This document shows, in pieces, positions 3,824-8,711 of a DNA stretch of 8,711 nt. How positions within the stretch are numbered: the first letter of the stretch is position 1; each line of letters begins with the position of its first letter. The notes beneath the pieces are model-generated. The model was not told where the DNA came from. It made no database searches and saw nothing but the letters and a program-made list of their open reading frames with translations. The stretch covers positions 2,244 to 10,954 of the forward strand of contig DFYG01000097.1 in assembly GCA_002382605.1 (NCBI GenBank), written 5' to 3'. The position numbers were made by a program, and so were the translations under genes. The DNA is from Synergistaceae bacterium UBA4088. Its GTDB lineage: Bacteria; Synergistota; Synergistia; Synergistales; Thermovirgaceae.

Positions 3824-4495
3824 ATGGATTTAAAAACGATGGTGCGAGAGGCCATGTCCCGGCATCCCAGGACGCTTACTGAAATTGTAGAAGAAGTACT
3901 GCGCACCGCCATAACCCAAGGAATATTAAAGCCGGGTGACAAACTATCCGCCGAAGATCTGGCGGCGGAATTCGGAGTGAGCCGGATGCCAGTACGTGAA
4001 GCGCTAAGAAAGCTAGAAACGGTGGGGCTGGTGGTAATTCGGCCTCAGAAAGGCGTTGAGGTTTCCCGGCTTTCCTTGGAAGAATTAAGGGAGCTGGCGG
4101 ATATCCGGGTTGCCTTGGAATGCATGGCCGTAAAGCTTGCTCTGCCTCGTTTGACCCCGACCAAATATGAAGAGTTGCAAGAAATAATTGAAGAAATGAA
4201 TAGAGAACGGGATGATGCTCGGATCTTCAACCTGGCATGGGATTTCCATGTCCTTCTCTATGAGGCTGCCAACAATACCCAACTACAAGAATTTATCGCT
4301 CAGGTTAGGGTTAACTTTGACAGGTATCTTTGGTTCTATCAGGCAACTTTTAAAGATGCAGGGGAGATACACAGGAAGTTATTCGAAGTTATAAAAGGGG
4401 GCAATGCCGAAGAAGCGGTCAAGGCTATGGAAGAGCACATACGTCAAACTGAAAAAAAGGTGGTGGATATGGTCGAGAGACAAACAAATTTCTAA
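3824..4495 (+). CDS. GntR-family transcriptional regulator, FadR/FCD subfamily
   Basis: This 223-residue protein is a ligand-responsive DNA-binding regulator. The N-terminal winged helix (about residues 17-80) shows the GntR signature: I30-x-x-G33-x-L-K-P-G38-x-K-L, then L46-A-x-E-F-G-V-S-R54-M-P-V-R58-E-A-L-x-x-L-E-x-x-G-L. The C-terminal FCD domain has the expected metal-ligand set of one Asp and three His: D93 in the ADIR segment, H142 in WDFHVLL, H183 in HRKLF and H205 in EEHI. FCD domains typically bind small organic acids near such a metal. ATG 3824 is preceded by AAGGAG at 3808-3813 (spacing 10). The gene is divergent from nothing and lies 81 bases before the transporter, so it probably regulates the downstream transport and reductase genes and itself, with a carboxylate-like inducer; this is inference. 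I could not find a clear palindromic operator on either side. Confidence 0.93.
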   Translation: MDLKTMVREAMSRHPRTLTEIVEEVLRTAITQGILKPGDKLSAEDLAAEFGVSRMPVREALRKLETVGLVVIRPQKGVEVSRLSLEELRELADIRVALECMAVKLALPRLTPTKYEELQEIIEEMNRERDDARIFNLAWDFHVLLYEAANNTQLQEFIAQVRVNFDRYLWFYQATFKDAGEIHRKLFEVIKGGNAEEAVKAMEEHIRQTEKKVVDMVERQTNF

Positions 4496-4576: not shown

Positions 4577-5830
4577 ATGAGCCGCAAACCACATTACGCT
4601 TGGATTATTCTGACTGGGGCGTGGCTAGCCTTCATGGGGGTCGGTCTTATCAGATTCGTATATCCCTATGTCGTCCCGATAATGGAAGAAACCTTAGGCT
4701 TATCGCATGCTGTGATGGGCATTATCATATCATGCTTCTTCTGGGCCGATACCGTTATGAGGATAGTCTGGGGCATACTTTCTGATAGGTTTGGCACTCG
4801 GTTGACTACGCTGCTAGGGTTGGTCCTGCTGTCCGTGGGTTTTTTCATAATGTCATTCGCCACTGGAATATCCAGCCTTGCCATAGGGTTTACTGTTAGC
4901 GGAGTGGGAGCCGCGGCGCTCTTCATCATGCCATCGCCTCTTCTATCGCGTTGGTTCGGCCAGCGCAGGAGAGCTACCGCGATCGGCATTGTGACCACTG
5001 CAGCCACGGTAGTGACGATTGTGGCGGGTTTTATTGTCCCTCTTGTTCTGACCAATAATCCGTATAATGTCATTTGGCGAACCGAGGCGATCTTCGTCTT
5101 GGTGATCCTGGCAGTCAATTTCTTTATCCTTACCAATTCTCCGGCCGAGAAGGGGCTGACACCGTACGGTGCAAGTGTAGAAGAGCTGGAGACGATCAAA
5201 GTTACCAGAAAGGGCAATGTGTGGGACAGGGAAAGCATTTTACGCGTGCTTAAGGATGGAGCTTTCTACCAGATCGCCGGCTCTTATTTTGTGTACGGCG
5301 TCGCGTATACCGGCGTGCTGACTTTCTTGGTTGGCTACTTCAAGGAAGTGGGCTGGACTGCTGGTGCGGCCAGCCAGCTCATCGCCCTGTTCGGGATGGC
5401 CGGGCTGATTGGCGCCCTGGTCTGGGGCGCGGTCGGCGATCGCCTGGCCAAGCGGTATGTGTTTGGTATGACGCTAGGAATGCAAGGCATCGGGATTCTA
5501 GTGCTGGTGCTTGCGGGGCAGACGCCAGCCATGGCCTACCTGGGGATGATACTATTTGGGCTCGGTGGTTCTGGGCCGGTAGTGATGATCTCGGCCATTC
5601 AGGCAGACTACTTCGACAGGAGCACTATCGGCACAAGCTTCGGTCTCTGTGCGGCCTGCTTCAGCATCGCCTCTGCAGTCAGCCCAATCATTGGCGGAGT
5701 CCTTGCTGATTCTACCGGTACGCTGCGCTCAGCCCTACTTATGGGCCTAGTGGGGAGTATCATCGGAGCGGTGCTCATCTCACTGCTGGCAGAGCCGCGG
5801 ACTGTTAAGGCTGTTCCCAAATCAAGGTAA
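4577..5830 (+). CDS. MFS transporter, probably importing an organic anion or zwitterion for the reductase
   Basis: The 417-residue product has the 12 hydrophobic segments of a major facilitator, starting with TM1 at about residues 8-30. The MFS motif A between TM2 and TM3 is G66-I-L-S-D70-R-F-G-T-R75, and its second-half copy is GAVGDRLAKR, before TM9. A polar loop (about residues 190-215, with PAEKGLTPYGASVEELE) separates the two halves; PxxKGLxPYG-type loops are common in OFA and related carboxylate carriers of this superfamily. ATG 4577 is preceded by a near-ideal AGGAGGTG at 4564-4571 with five bases of spacing. The gene ends 14 bases before the next start, so it is surely co-transcribed with the two Grd-like genes. 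Its substrate is unknown; from context it is likely the compound that the reductase uses, such as an amino acid, N-methylated glycine or related carboxylate. The direction of transport is not visible in the sequence. Confidence 0.9.
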   Translation: MSRKPHYAWIILTGAWLAFMGVGLIRFVYPYVVPIMEETLGLSHAVMGIIISCFFWADTVMRIVWGILSDRFGTRLTTLLGLVLLSVGFFIMSFATGISSLAIGFTVSGVGAAALFIMPSPLLSRWFGQRRRATAIGIVTTAATVVTIVAGFIVPLVLTNNPYNVIWRTEAIFVLVILAVNFFILTNSPAEKGLTPYGASVEELETIKVTRKGNVWDRESILRVLKDGAFYQIAGSYFVYGVAYTGVLTFLVGYFKEVGWTAGAASQLIALFGMAGLIGALVWGAVGDRLAKRYVFGMTLGMQGIGILVLVLAGQTPAMAYLGMILFGLGGSGPVVMISAIQADYFDRSTIGTSFGLCAACFSIASAVSPIIGGVLADSTGTLRSALLMGLVGSIIGAVLISLLAEPRTVKAVPKSR

Positions 5831-5844
5831 ACGGGGGTATGGTT

Positions 5845-7140
5845 ATGAGGTTACAACTGCAGAAGTTCAATGTTAAACATGTCGACTTTGCAGATCAGAC
5901 AGCATTTGATGGTGGCGTCCTCCATATAAACAAGGAGGAACTAAAGGCATTGTTAGAAGCGGACGCCAGGTTCAACAGGTTCGATATTGAGCTGACCCAT
6001 CCGGGGGAGAGCGTCCGCATCCTTCAGGTTGCTGATATAATCGAGCCGCGGGCCAGAAGGGATGGGGGAGACTTCCCAGGCATCCTGAGCCCGAGAGTCA
6101 CGATTGTGGGCAACGGCATCACCGACGTGTTGAGCGGCGCCGCAGTGGTGCTGATCGATGAGTGCGGTAACAACTGTGGAGTTACCCATGATGCAGTCGG
6201 AAATACCATCGACATGAACGGCCCGGGGGCTGAAATCACCACCTATGGCAAAACTTGCAATATCTGCCTGATTCCGTATGCCGCGGATAGCGTAGATATA
6301 ACAGAGGATGACTTCAAAATCGCTTGCAAGGTCGCTGGACTGAAGGCGGCAGTATACCTGGCCCAGGCGTGCAAGAACCTGGAACCGGACGAAGTGGAAG
6401 TGTACGAACTGCCCCCAACGGCCGAAGCGTCCAAAGGTGTGGAGCACCTACCCAGGGTAGTCTATATATTCAACATGTACCGGTATTACCTGAAGGATGA
6501 GTTCGCCATCTACGGGCACACGTATTCATGGTTCCCGTCGGTGTTTATGCATCCGAATGAGTTCTTTGATGGCGCCGTGGTCAATCCTTATCTGAACGCC
6601 AACGGCCCTTCGCCGGCCACGATCGACACCCACACGATTCAGAATCACCCTGTGATTAAGGAGCTCTATCAGCGACACGGTAAGGAACTATGCTTCCTTG
6701 GTGTAATTCCCACAGTGGCTCAACTGGAAGAATCCTCAGTGGAAATGCAGGCGAACGTGGCTGTAAAGCTAGCCATGTCACTTGGGGCTGATGGGATCAT
6801 CCTGACCAAGGCCCCGGGCGGCTCTCCCCAACTGGACGTCGCTCGGGCTGCTATAAAGGCCGGAGAGCTTGGTATGAAAGCGGTGCTTATCCTGGATGAT
6901 ATCGCAGCCCGTTCGCCCGACGGAAAATTCCGGGCCAACGGCATCATGTACGATGATCCCGGAGCAAGCACTATTGTAAATACGGGCAATTGTTCAGAAA
7001 TCGCCAAGCTGCCTTCTGTGGAGCGTACGATCGGCCACCATGTTGACGGAGCCAAGGGTGAACTGAGGCGAATCCGTATCGCCCTCATCGGCCAGGGCGG
7101 ACAGTTTGGAAATACACACACGGTTGAGGTGGAGTACTAG
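5845..7140 (+). CDS. Glycine/sarcosine/betaine reductase component B, GrdE-family subunit (divergent, substrate unknown)
   Basis: In the known enzymes GrdE, GrdG and GrdI are proproteins that self-cleave at an Asn-Cys bond; the Cys becomes a pyruvoyl group that binds the substrate amine. The 431-residue product follows the GrdE plan: MRLQLQKF start, GVLHINKEEL, DIELTHPGESVRI, a D-I-I-E-P-R block, DMNGPGAE, AGLKAAVYLAQACKNLEPDEVEVYE, GADGIILTK and the late TIGHH motif. Two features are odd. Residues 242-271, which align with the GrdE cleavage region between DGA and N-x-P-V-I, contain no cysteine, so the usual pyruvoyl precursor is missing; Ser256 or nearby Thr residues are the only possible substitutes. 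There are also two cysteine pairs, C107-x3-C111 and C138-x2-C141, that could hold a metal. I chose ATG 5845 over ATG 5839 because the GGGGG at 5833-5837 is better spaced (seven bases) and the family starts MRL. Comparison with GrdE is from memory. Confidence 0.85.
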   Translation: MRLQLQKFNVKHVDFADQTAFDGGVLHINKEELKALLEADARFNRFDIELTHPGESVRILQVADIIEPRARRDGGDFPGILSPRVTIVGNGITDVLSGAAVVLIDECGNNCGVTHDAVGNTIDMNGPGAEITTYGKTCNICLIPYAADSVDITEDDFKIACKVAGLKAAVYLAQACKNLEPDEVEVYELPPTAEASKGVEHLPRVVYIFNMYRYYLKDEFAIYGHTYSWFPSVFMHPNEFFDGAVVNPYLNANGPSPATIDTHTIQNHPVIKELYQRHGKELCFLGVIPTVAQLEESSVEMQANVAVKLAMSLGADGIILTKAPGGSPQLDVARAAIKAGELGMKAVLILDDIAARSPDGKFRANGIMYDDPGASTIVNTGNCSEIAKLPSVERTIGHHVDGAKGELRRIRIALIGQGGQFGNTHTVEVEY

Positions 7141-7203: not shown

Positions 7204-8514
7204 ATGGAGCCCAAGTTGAAAGTGGTACAGTATGTGAACCAATTCTTCGGCCAGTTGGGCGGCGAAGAGAAGGCATTCGTCGAGCCCCAGGCCAGAGAAG
7301 GGGCAGTAGGTGTAGGCCTGGCCACGCAGAAGGCGCTGGGCGACCGTGGTCAGGTGGTTGCTACGGTGATGTGTGGCGACAACTACGCTGGAGAACGCCT
7401 CGAGGAGGCCACCGCACTGATCACTGAGATGATCGGCAAGTATTACCCGGACCTGGTGATTGCTGGGCCGGCTTTCAACGCCGGACGTTACGGTGTGGCG
7501 GCAGGGGCCGTGTGTCAGGCGGTACAAGAGAAGCTGGGCATCCCGGCAGTAACTGGGATGTATAAAGAGAACCCTGGTGTCGATCTGTACAGGGATCAGG
7601 TGTACATCATCGAAGCGGGTGATTCTGCCAAGGATCTACAGAGCACGATCGAACGTATGGTTAACCTCGGGCTCAAGCTGCTTGCCAAGCAACGGATTGG
7701 GAAGCCGCGCGAGGAAGGCTATTTCAGCCGCGGTCTCCTGGTTAATGAGCTTTCGGACAAAACCGCGGCGGAGCGTGGGGTAGACATGCTGGTGGCGTTA
7801 CTTAAAGGCGAACCCATCGAGCCAGAGTTGAGGCTTGCCACCTACGATAAGGTGAAGCCTGCCCCCGCGGTCGACAAACTGAAGATAGCCAAAGTCGCCT
7901 TGGTCACCGACGGCGGCCTGGTCCCGACAGGTAACCCGGATAAACTCGAATGGATGGCGGCGACTAAATACGTCAAGACAGACCTTGCAGGTCGCAAGAC
8001 GTTATCTGGTGGTGAGTTTTACGCCAACCATACGGGCTACGATACCACCGAGGTCAACGCCAACCCCCTGCGGCTTGTCCCCTTTGACGTAATGCGCGAG
8101 TTGGAAGATGAGGGGGTAATCCAGAAGCTCCACCCTACACTATACTCCACCACAGGCGTGGCGACGACGATAGAGTACTCCCAGCAAATCGGAAAAGGAA
8201 TTGCCAAGGAATTAAAAGACGCCGGTGTTAACGCTGTGATCTTGACTTCAACCTGAGGGACCAGTACGCGTTGCGGTGCAACGCTGGCCAAGGAAATCGA
8301 GCGTGAAGGGATTCCCGTGGCCCACATCACCAGTCTTCCTAACATCGCAGCAATGGCGAACAGCAACCGAATTGTACAAGCCAATGGTATTGTTCATCCG
8401 GTTGGAGATGCGTCTCTATCGCCCGAGGAGGAGAAGGAGGTGCGGTGGACTATCGTGCAGAAAGCGCTAGAGGCCCTGCAGACCAATTTGGACACCCAGC
8501 GTTTGTTTAAGTAA
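7204..8514 (+). CDS. GrdB/GrdF/GrdH-family reductase component B subunit, selenoprotein (Sec at TGA 8254-8256)
   Basis: This is the second component B subunit. In the known reductases its selenocysteine attacks the substrate bound by the pyruvoyl partner and passes the product on to selenoprotein A. The frame reaches TGA at 8254-8256 and continues in the same frame with unbroken family sequence (…VILTST-U-GTSTRCGATLAKEIEREGIPV…) to TAA at 8512-8514, giving 436 residues with Sec at 351. Both length and Sec position are those of GrdB. The start MEPKLKVVQYVNQFFGQLGG matches the family N-terminus. A hairpin follows the TGA. The family motif U-x2-C-x2-C is here U351-x2-S354-x2-C357, with AGT for the middle residue. 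ATG 7204 gives the family-like N-terminus; an in-frame TTG at 7198 is closer to GAGGAGGG (7186-7193) and cannot be excluded. Any annotation that stops at 8256 is truncated by 86 residues. The substrate is unknown. Confidence 0.92.
8254..8256 (+). other. In-frame TGA decoded as selenocysteine
   Basis: The codon lies inside an otherwise uninterrupted GrdB-family frame. Conserved sequence on both sides (ILTST before, RCGAT-x3-EIER-x-GIP after) places it exactly at the known Sec position of the family. Use of this codon means the host must carry selA, selB, selC and selD, none of which is in the window. Confidence 0.93.
8257..8287 (+). promoter_or_regulatory. Bacterial SECIS-like hairpin downstream of the Sec codon
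   Basis: Eleven bases after the TGA, GCGTTG (8268-8273) pairs perfectly with CAACGC (8279-8284) around the loop CGGTG. CCA (8261-8263) can pair with TGG (8285-8287) beneath a four-base bulge (GTAC), lengthening the stem. The loop guanines lie about 19-20 bases after the TGA, within the range for bacterial SECIS elements that recruit SelB. The hairpin overlaps the codons for the R-C-G-A motif, so its sequence is constrained twice. Confidence 0.75.
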
Positions 8515-8527
8515 AAAATAACCTGGT

Positions 8528-8575
8528 TTTACTGGGGGACATGTACCCACTCGGTTCCCCTGTTCCCCCAGTAAA
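8528..8575. repeat. 12-base perfect inverted repeat: possible terminator or REP-like hairpin
   Basis: TTTACTGGGGGA (8528-8539) pairs completely with TCCCCCAGTAAA (8564-8575) across a 24-base loop that can itself form a small ACC/GGT hairpin (8545-8547 with 8553-8555). It sits 13 bases after the stop of the selenoprotein gene, where a terminator is expected, but no U-run follows on the plus strand. The alternating GGGGGACATGTACCC and GGTTCCCC blocks look like the dispersed REP-type hairpins of some anaerobes that are moved by REP-associated tyrosine transposases. Both readings are inferences. Confidence 0.6.
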
Positions 8576-8644
8576 GAATACATCAAGGTTCGCCAAAAAT
8601 CATCTATGATGGTCAATAGTCAGCTCAATACAGGAGATGGGGGC

Positions 8645-8711
8645 ATGGAGAAAAAACCGCTCAGATTGACGGTGTATTACGATTACGTCTGACCCTGGTG
8701 CTATGTCGGCC
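8645..8711 (+). CDS. DsbA/FrnE-like thioredoxin-fold oxidoreductase, Sec-containing (UPWC), 5' end only
   Basis: AGGAG at 8632-8636 precedes ATG 8645 by eight bases. The frame reads MEKKPLRLTVYYDYV, then TGA at 8690-8692, then PWCYVG to the window edge. The DsbA/FrnE/2-hydroxychromene-2-carboxylate isomerase family begins with a beta strand ending in D-x-x-C-P-W-C-Y-x-G, so the TGA falls exactly on the first active-site cysteine and is most simply read as selenocysteine (Sec16, motif U-P-W-C19). Sec replacing the first Cys of a CxxC redox pair is the usual way selenoproteins arise, and DsbA-like selenoproteins are known from metagenome surveys (memory, not checked). The downstream SECIS region lies mostly outside the window. 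It follows the Grd-like genes after a hairpin, so it may have its own transcript. A nonsense mutation of an ordinary CPWC protein is the alternative. Confidence 0.78.

Follow-up and report, generated by a model that had tools for sequence, protein, structure and literature searches.

DsbA-like proteins with selenocysteine (Sec) in a UxxC active site are an already known type, reported in 2005 (PMC1088965) and 2008 (PMC2398784) and listed in a 2026 review (PMC13188914). In the accessible parts of these sources they appear as Sargasso Sea DsbA-like (COG2761), GOS DsbA 1 and 'DsbA-like protein form 1' (PF01323), and, according to a figure legend of the earliest paper, a bacterial SECIS is predicted downstream of the UGA of the DsbA-like selenoprotein (PMC1088965). 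The gene described here has the same PF01323 domain and a predicted Sec in UxxC (PMC1088965, PMC2398784, PMC13188914); it differs in that it adjoins a Grd-like reductase, in a Synergistota genome, whereas a GrdE/GrdB operon goes unmentioned for the known UxxC DsbA proteins in the accessible parts of those papers.

Fluoroacetate reductase of Cloacibacillus porcorum (Synergistota) is encoded by the operon farACEB, whose products include a transporter of the MFS type and a radical-SAM protein; according to the accessible part of the source, FarB lacks the CxxC that is said to protect Sec, and FarE lacks the processing cysteines (PMC10838667). Our locus shares with this system the MFS transporter and a GrdE/GrdB-like pair with the same cysteine losses (PMC10838667), but its accessory gene encodes DsbA(Sec) and not the radical-SAM protein FarC. 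For D-proline reductase, PrdC, which uses NADH and has a thiol-selenol group, has been proposed to reduce PrdB (PMC3091704, accessible part), an arrangement that resembles our proposal of a second thiol-selenol redox protein re-reducing a Sec subunit.

Results

Gene start and continuation beyond the scaffold gap

The window, that is, the whole stretch of 8,711 nucleotides analysed here, belongs to a genome (G000) of 185 contigs that is 81% complete. It closes with the first 22 codons and one further base of a DsbA/FrnE-like gene (8645..8711, + strand; the 22nd codon ends at 8710), assigned by Pfam DSBA and by an intact ortholog in genome G392. The ATG (8645-8647) lies eight bases past an AGGAG (8632..8636, + strand), which from its sequence is the likely ribosome-binding site, and the frame reads MEKKPLRLTVYYDYV, an in-frame TGA (8690..8692, + strand) and PWCYVG. 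This TGA, which 21 of the 47 related named-genome loci also carry within UPWC, is predicted to encode Sec as the first residue of U-P-W-C. Judged by eye, MEKKPLRLTVYYDYV lacks a hydrophobic leader. A search for tRNA genes on the window's contig found none.

N runs border the window on either side (L003 2145-2243 and 10955-11022), and its right edge is the start of a 68-N scaffold gap (contig 10955-11022) in the 11,400-base contig. The preliminary description had suggested looking for a continuation past 8711, and a matching C-terminal half is indeed present on the same contig beyond this gap: the contig reads on with PLVFPERM and then GINQIPTFVLNDSYAVVGAQPYEVFQLVLEQMAQGV up to a TGA stop codon, with the frame unchanged at the stated length of the N run. 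The gene extends to contig position 11397, and its stop ends three bases short of the contig end. The post-gap part matches Pfam DSBA at 2.6e-22 (80 bits vs a gathering threshold of 25.6), and comparison of the window with G392 over 125 codons indicates purifying selection after the UGA (pN 0.22, pS 0.81). Because the N run offers space for 23 residues where the intact ortholog has 57, its length is an estimate; the frame across the gap is therefore likely, the assembly alone leaving it unproven.

A hairpin after the UGA

The SECIS-like hairpin proposed earlier for the bases after the TGA is present in relatives, and the window's own copy shows its 5' arm only (TCGGCC, 8706..8711, + strand), with the loop and the 3' arm under the N run. 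The same six bases occur in L007 and L008, where the full hairpin is readable, and in the 21 UPWC rows the hairpin begins 14 bases past the UGA. Of 30 Sec rows, 28 have all five core pairs intact, as against one of 17 Cys rows (L010); as a test this contrast is impure, since the Cys rows include many that are more distantly related. The 30 Sec rows are the 21 UPWC rows and nine more, with L115 (which repeats the gene of L006), L125 and L131 left out; by eye, L125 and L131 keep five and four of the five core pairs, respectively. The 17 Cys rows exclude L137 and six other CPxC loci. Two Sec rows break the pattern, namely L142, in which two core pairs fail, and L114, the G392 ortholog, which has lost the outermost of seven pairs and keeps the other six, one of them via a C-G to U-A double change.

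Double changes occur in four pairs of the hairpin. The sixth pair is seen as C-G, A-U, U-A and G-C, and fails (C-C) in 13 Sec rows of the Dehalococcoidia/SAR202 type. The covariation score was 0.278 vs 0.115 in shuffles that ignore relatedness (0/500 as high), and controls slid along the alignment reached at most 0.158. Single-sequence folds after the UGA, compared with codon shuffles, gave a weak signal (z between -1.92 and +1.3 for the 21 Sec rows), the lowest z of all (-2.03) belonging to a Cys row (L009), and the five pairs that RNAalifold predicted from 21 rows include no double change. As single folds and RNAalifold thus give little, the case for the hairpin rests on the wider alignment together with the Sec/Cys contrast. 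The genome itself encodes selA (552 bits, over the cut-off). Taken with the 21 UPWC relatives and the SECIS-bearing GrdB gene described below, selA and the covarying hairpin support the prediction that UGA is read as Sec in the DsbA-like gene. The position of the TGA, at the first active-site residue, is on this comparative evidence not a product of chance.

Two other loci of the alignment deserve mention. L010, the CPWC DsbA of an Anaerolineaceae genome (position 9917), keeps all seven hairpin pairs and is the tree neighbour of L008, a UPWC row; its sequence looks like a recent Sec-to-Cys change. L006, a Peptococcaceae contig, carries a tRNA-Sec gene at 4227-4306 (Rfam RF01852, 64 bits), about 5.6 kb ahead of its UPWC DsbA, among ORFs that by eye resemble 2-hydroxyacyl-CoA dehydratase and aldo/keto reductase.

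Relatives and fold of the DsbA-like protein

A protein search returned 634 proteins at E <= 0.001, the best 120 of which were examined. Within these 120, the closest are P0002 (94% identity) and P0003 (89%, Synergistaceae), whose database entries omit 30 and 43 N-terminal residues, respectively, and start only past the active site. Such truncation is how gene callers behave at a UGA and hence its expected mark; the earlier expectation that standard callers would miss the gene thus holds for its nearest relatives. P0004-P0006 are full-length and have CPWC. Homologues with UPWC or CPWC, which had likewise been anticipated, account for 21 and 2 of the 47 named-genome loci, and the rest comprise one UPYC locus (another family), six other CPxC loci and 17 in which no motif was found. 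By name, 19 of the UPWC loci are of Chloroflexota type, one is from Dormiibacterota and one from Peptococcaceae; both CPWC loci are from Anaerolineaceae.

We also sampled 398 genomes from the phylum of the Peptococcaceae genome (Bacillota), using a DsbA threshold of 1e-25. Matches were obtained in 30 of them, and the loci read as Sec at the site in 12 (one of which, L115, is the same gene as L006) and as Cys in 16, with two unread (L128, L141). Within the phylum of the window, 15 of 185 genomes have a DsbA match at 1e-10, the window genome counted, and the only close match is that of the window itself. In a tree, a single 10-row clade (100/100) unites the window with P0002, P0003, G392, P0008, P0009, L006 and three CPWC proteins, P0004-P0006. 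Among viral contigs, 22 pattern matches included no relative; 194 plasmid records matched, each at <60% identity, and most of the 20 examined were named DsbA family oxidoreductase.

Neither the window protein nor any of four relatives reached the cut-off of an NCBIfam model. The sole match of the window protein at 0.001 was NF041057, the Rcas_1661 family thioredoxin-like (seleno)lipoprotein, with 47 bits where the cut-off is 190, over the C-terminal half only (relatives 37-57). The G392 ortholog, which scores 121 bits with Pfam DSBA, was modelled with AlphaFold (pLDDT 92). Closest to this model in the PDB is FrnE from Deinococcus radiodurans, with a TM of 0.86 (query) to 5co3; kappa GST and 2-hydroxychromene-2-carboxylate isomerase are among the other structural neighbours. 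FrnE (5co3/5cnw) is also the best match by sequence (2.5e-32). Its chain has 260 residues, compared with about 200 for the window protein with its predicted active-site Sec; FrnE itself has Cys in the active site, plus further motifs. PrdC has a fold unrelated to that of the DsbA-like protein. The Pfam match, the 21 UPWC loci with TGA and the FrnE fold support the initial assignment as a Sec-containing DsbA/FrnE-like protein with U-P-W-C. By title, no bacterial Sec-FrnE appeared in the mostly non-subscription literature searched.

Genes upstream and an altered GrdE/GrdB pair

The four genes upstream described here lie on the + strand. A GntR/FCD-family regulator (3824..4495), identified by a profile match and without a match on the G392 contig, is followed by an MFS transporter (4577..5830; 70% identical to the MFS at the same place in G392), a GrdE-like subunit (5839..7140; Pfam Gly_reductase 1.3e-93) and a GrdB-like selenoprotein subunit (7204..8514, start codon by eye; Pfam GRDB 3.5e-136). 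From its sequence, the in-frame TGA of the GrdB-like gene (8254..8256, + strand) is predicted to encode Sec; it is followed directly by a SECIS (8257..8294, + strand; L003 10500-10537) that matches Rfam SECIS_4 with 41.3 bits (gathering 38).

GrdB-like and DsbA-like genes are 130 bases apart. This spacing includes a strong hairpin (8528..8575, + strand), formed by the inverted repeat TTTACTGGGGGACA / TGTTCCCCCAGTAAA with arms at 8528-8541 and 8561-8575 and no T run after it; the stretch 8515-8590 folds at -26.3 kcal/mol (z -2.8). No such repeat was seen between the same genes in G392; it could be an mRNA stability element or a mobile repeat element.

The GrdE-like subunit lacks the pyruvoyl-forming GNC-VSAC motif (GNCVSACDKN), which was found in 19 of 20 readable control loci (L094 was excluded from this count, an N run of its contig lying at the site) and is missing in L099, the window and G392; the site reads NPYLNANGPSPATID in the window and NSYLNANLSSPASMD in G392. 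GrdE-like matches of genome G196 (L075-L079) are likewise without it. In GrdB, 20 of 21 control loci have UGTC-TRC and L099 has UGSG-TRC, whereas the window and G392 have UGTS-TRC, with Ser in place of the first Cys of the canonical CxxC next to Sec. L099 (G387) holds a further Grd-like pair, one that lacks the pyruvoyl motif (SGNH) and carries UGSG in its GrdB; the DNA retrieved around it contains no DsbA. Since the same cysteine losses occur there with no DsbA nearby, the loss does not require a DsbA partner.

Regarding component B, the pair has the Gly_reductase and GRDB domains and a predicted Sec in GrdB, but neither the pyruvoyl Cys nor the CxxC after Sec. GrdB exceeds the cut-off of the general model TIGR01918 only and reaches no substrate-specific NCBIfam model, and GrdE scores 169.7 against the FarE model, whose cut-off is 675. 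These NCBIfam cut-offs led us to reject a simple assignment to glycine, sarcosine, betaine or fluoroacetate reductase. FarC is absent from the interval between GntR and DsbA, where GntR, MFS, GrdE, GrdB and DsbA leave no room for it. Lacking both the pyruvoyl motif and the CxxC by Sec, the pair points to an unassigned Grd-type reductase beside fluoroacetate reductase. Contig C57 of the same genome carries TrxA, GrdE, GrdA (TGA), GrdB, GrdC and GrdD genes, and a GrdA acceptor therefore exists in this genome.

Recurrence of the gene block

The block MFS - GrdE-like - GrdB(UGA)-like - DsbA(UGA)-like was found in two genomes of two phyla, that of the window and G392, which belongs to the Bacillota sample. 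On the G392 contig the order is the same, with identities to the window of 70% (MFS), 67% (GrdE) and 74% (GrdB, TGA). The G392 DsbA is complete, has TGA at UPWC and is 58% identical to P0004, 63% to P0002 and 57% to the readable window protein. At 1e-70, GrdE matches occur in 20 of the 398 genomes, G392 having 67% identity and the others 38-41%, and this list overlaps the DsbA list of 30 genomes (1e-25) in G392 only. The nearest GrdE relatives in a protein search were P0123-P0126 at 69-74% and P0128 (Anaeropeptidivorans) at 59%, within a range of 54-74% for P0123-P0136.

No DsbA match was found in the stretches of 21 other grd loci (8-13.5 kb each, some ended by contig ends), which were two of the window's own genome, one of G005 and 18 of the 19 others from the GrdE list (G234 left out). 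Conversely, a GrdE match at 1e-10 is absent from 14 of 15 DsbA genomes (12/13 Sec, 2/2 Cys; 15 of the 47 loci were used). The link to a GrdE/GrdB-like pair drawn in the preliminary description thus recurs in another phylum, but fails as a general rule. Given that the DsbA family is mostly without Grd and the block is nevertheless shared, the family is a general one and the link a property of this operon type.

Close DsbA and close GrdE matches occur in the window genome alone among 185 genomes of its phylum, the next GrdE, in G005, having 42% identity. GrdE was present in one of 13 genomes of the class of G392, namely G392 itself, and in none of 59 of the class of G349 (1e-85); in the phylum to which the Anaerolineales genome G187 belongs, 400 genomes gave no match at 1e-75, an empty answer that is uninformative by method. 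G196, a Chloroflexi genome, has six GrdE-like matches (L075-L080), some in tandem on small contigs, as well as a UPWC DsbA (L023).

Discussion

The same run of genes in another phylum suggests that the DsbA-like protein serves the Grd-like reductase. Our preferred reading, to which we give about an even chance, is that the window ends in the start of a DsbA/FrnE-like gene with a predicted Sec at UPWC, whose product would act as a thiol/selenol reductant dedicated to the GrdE/GrdB-like reductase of the genes just upstream. The substrate would be a small carboxylate, imported by the MFS transporter, for which a Schiff base is unneeded, and the Sec of GrdB would attack its activated carbon. As GrdB no longer has the Cys next to its Sec, the DsbA-like protein would use its selenol/thiol pair to open, in trans, the selenenyl-sulfide, selenenic acid or adduct that arises on that Sec, by analogy with the action proposed for PrdC on PrdB (PMC3091704, accessible part). 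The DsbA-like protein would then be re-reduced by the thioredoxin system of the cell, and the carboxymethyl group may still go to the GrdA encoded elsewhere in the genome. Oxidation or isomerisation is also possible as the working direction of the DsbA-like protein. Several findings weigh against a dedicated reductant: the block is known from two genomes only, most members of the DsbA(Sec) family have no Grd in their genomes, L099 shows the same cysteine losses with no DsbA nearby, the outermost hairpin pair is broken in the G392 ortholog, and 130 bases with a strong hairpin lie ahead of the DsbA-like gene, which leaves co-transcription with GrdB a conjecture. A bolder form of the idea, which we put forward only tentatively, is a selenium-to-selenium relay in which the resolving Cys has moved from GrdB (UGTC to UGTS) to the seleno-DsbA, giving a self-contained reductase of non-amine carboxylates that is perhaps GrdA-free.

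A general cytosolic seleno-FrnE for thiol or oxidative-stress housekeeping could have landed beside the Grd-like genes and been co-moved with them by horizontal transfer. The UPxC DsbA proteins of Chloroflexota and of the Bacillota sample are indeed mostly without Grd, and the sole close DsbA and GrdE among 185 Synergistota genomes fit the transfer of a whole block. However, the same adjacency is kept across two phyla at only 57-74% protein identity and is therefore long-lasting, and both operon DsbAs fall within the single 10-row clade (100/100). We regard a housekeeping protein as possible at this position, if rather doubtful.

Alternatively, the seleno-DsbA could shape or repair the GrdE/GrdB-like subunits and carry no electrons per turnover. 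An accessory protein for GrdB has a precedent in the far operon, whose radical-SAM protein is proposed, in the accessible part of the source, to activate or reactivate FarB (PMC10838667). But the FrnE-type fold of the model would suggest thiol exchange, and the GrdE-like protein is without the cysteine that would require processing, which makes a maturation factor improbable. It is highly improbable that the protein takes a catalytic step on the substrate itself, with a selenol like that of kappa GST or HCCA isomerase forming or opening a substrate adduct: both enzymes are among the structure neighbours of the predicted model, but the UxxC pair is retained and FrnE is closest by sequence and by fold. 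Finally, a pseudogene or sequencing error, with the TGA as a true stop in a broken copy, is next to negligible and was rejected, even though the assembly gap lies directly past the TGA and the copy is not read in one piece, because 21 named-genome loci and G392 share the TGA at this codon, the hairpin covaries and the open C-terminal half is under purifying selection.

With the seleno-DsbA type known, what appears to be new is the position of DsbA(Sec) after MFS - GrdE-like - GrdB(Sec)-like; in the literature searched, mostly non-subscription, we found no report of a linkage between DsbA(Sec) and GrdE/GrdB. Standard annotation loses this gene, as the two closest database copies, both without the active site, illustrate. 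Its place in a Grd-type operon of two phyla provides a concrete, testable partner for such a selenoprotein.
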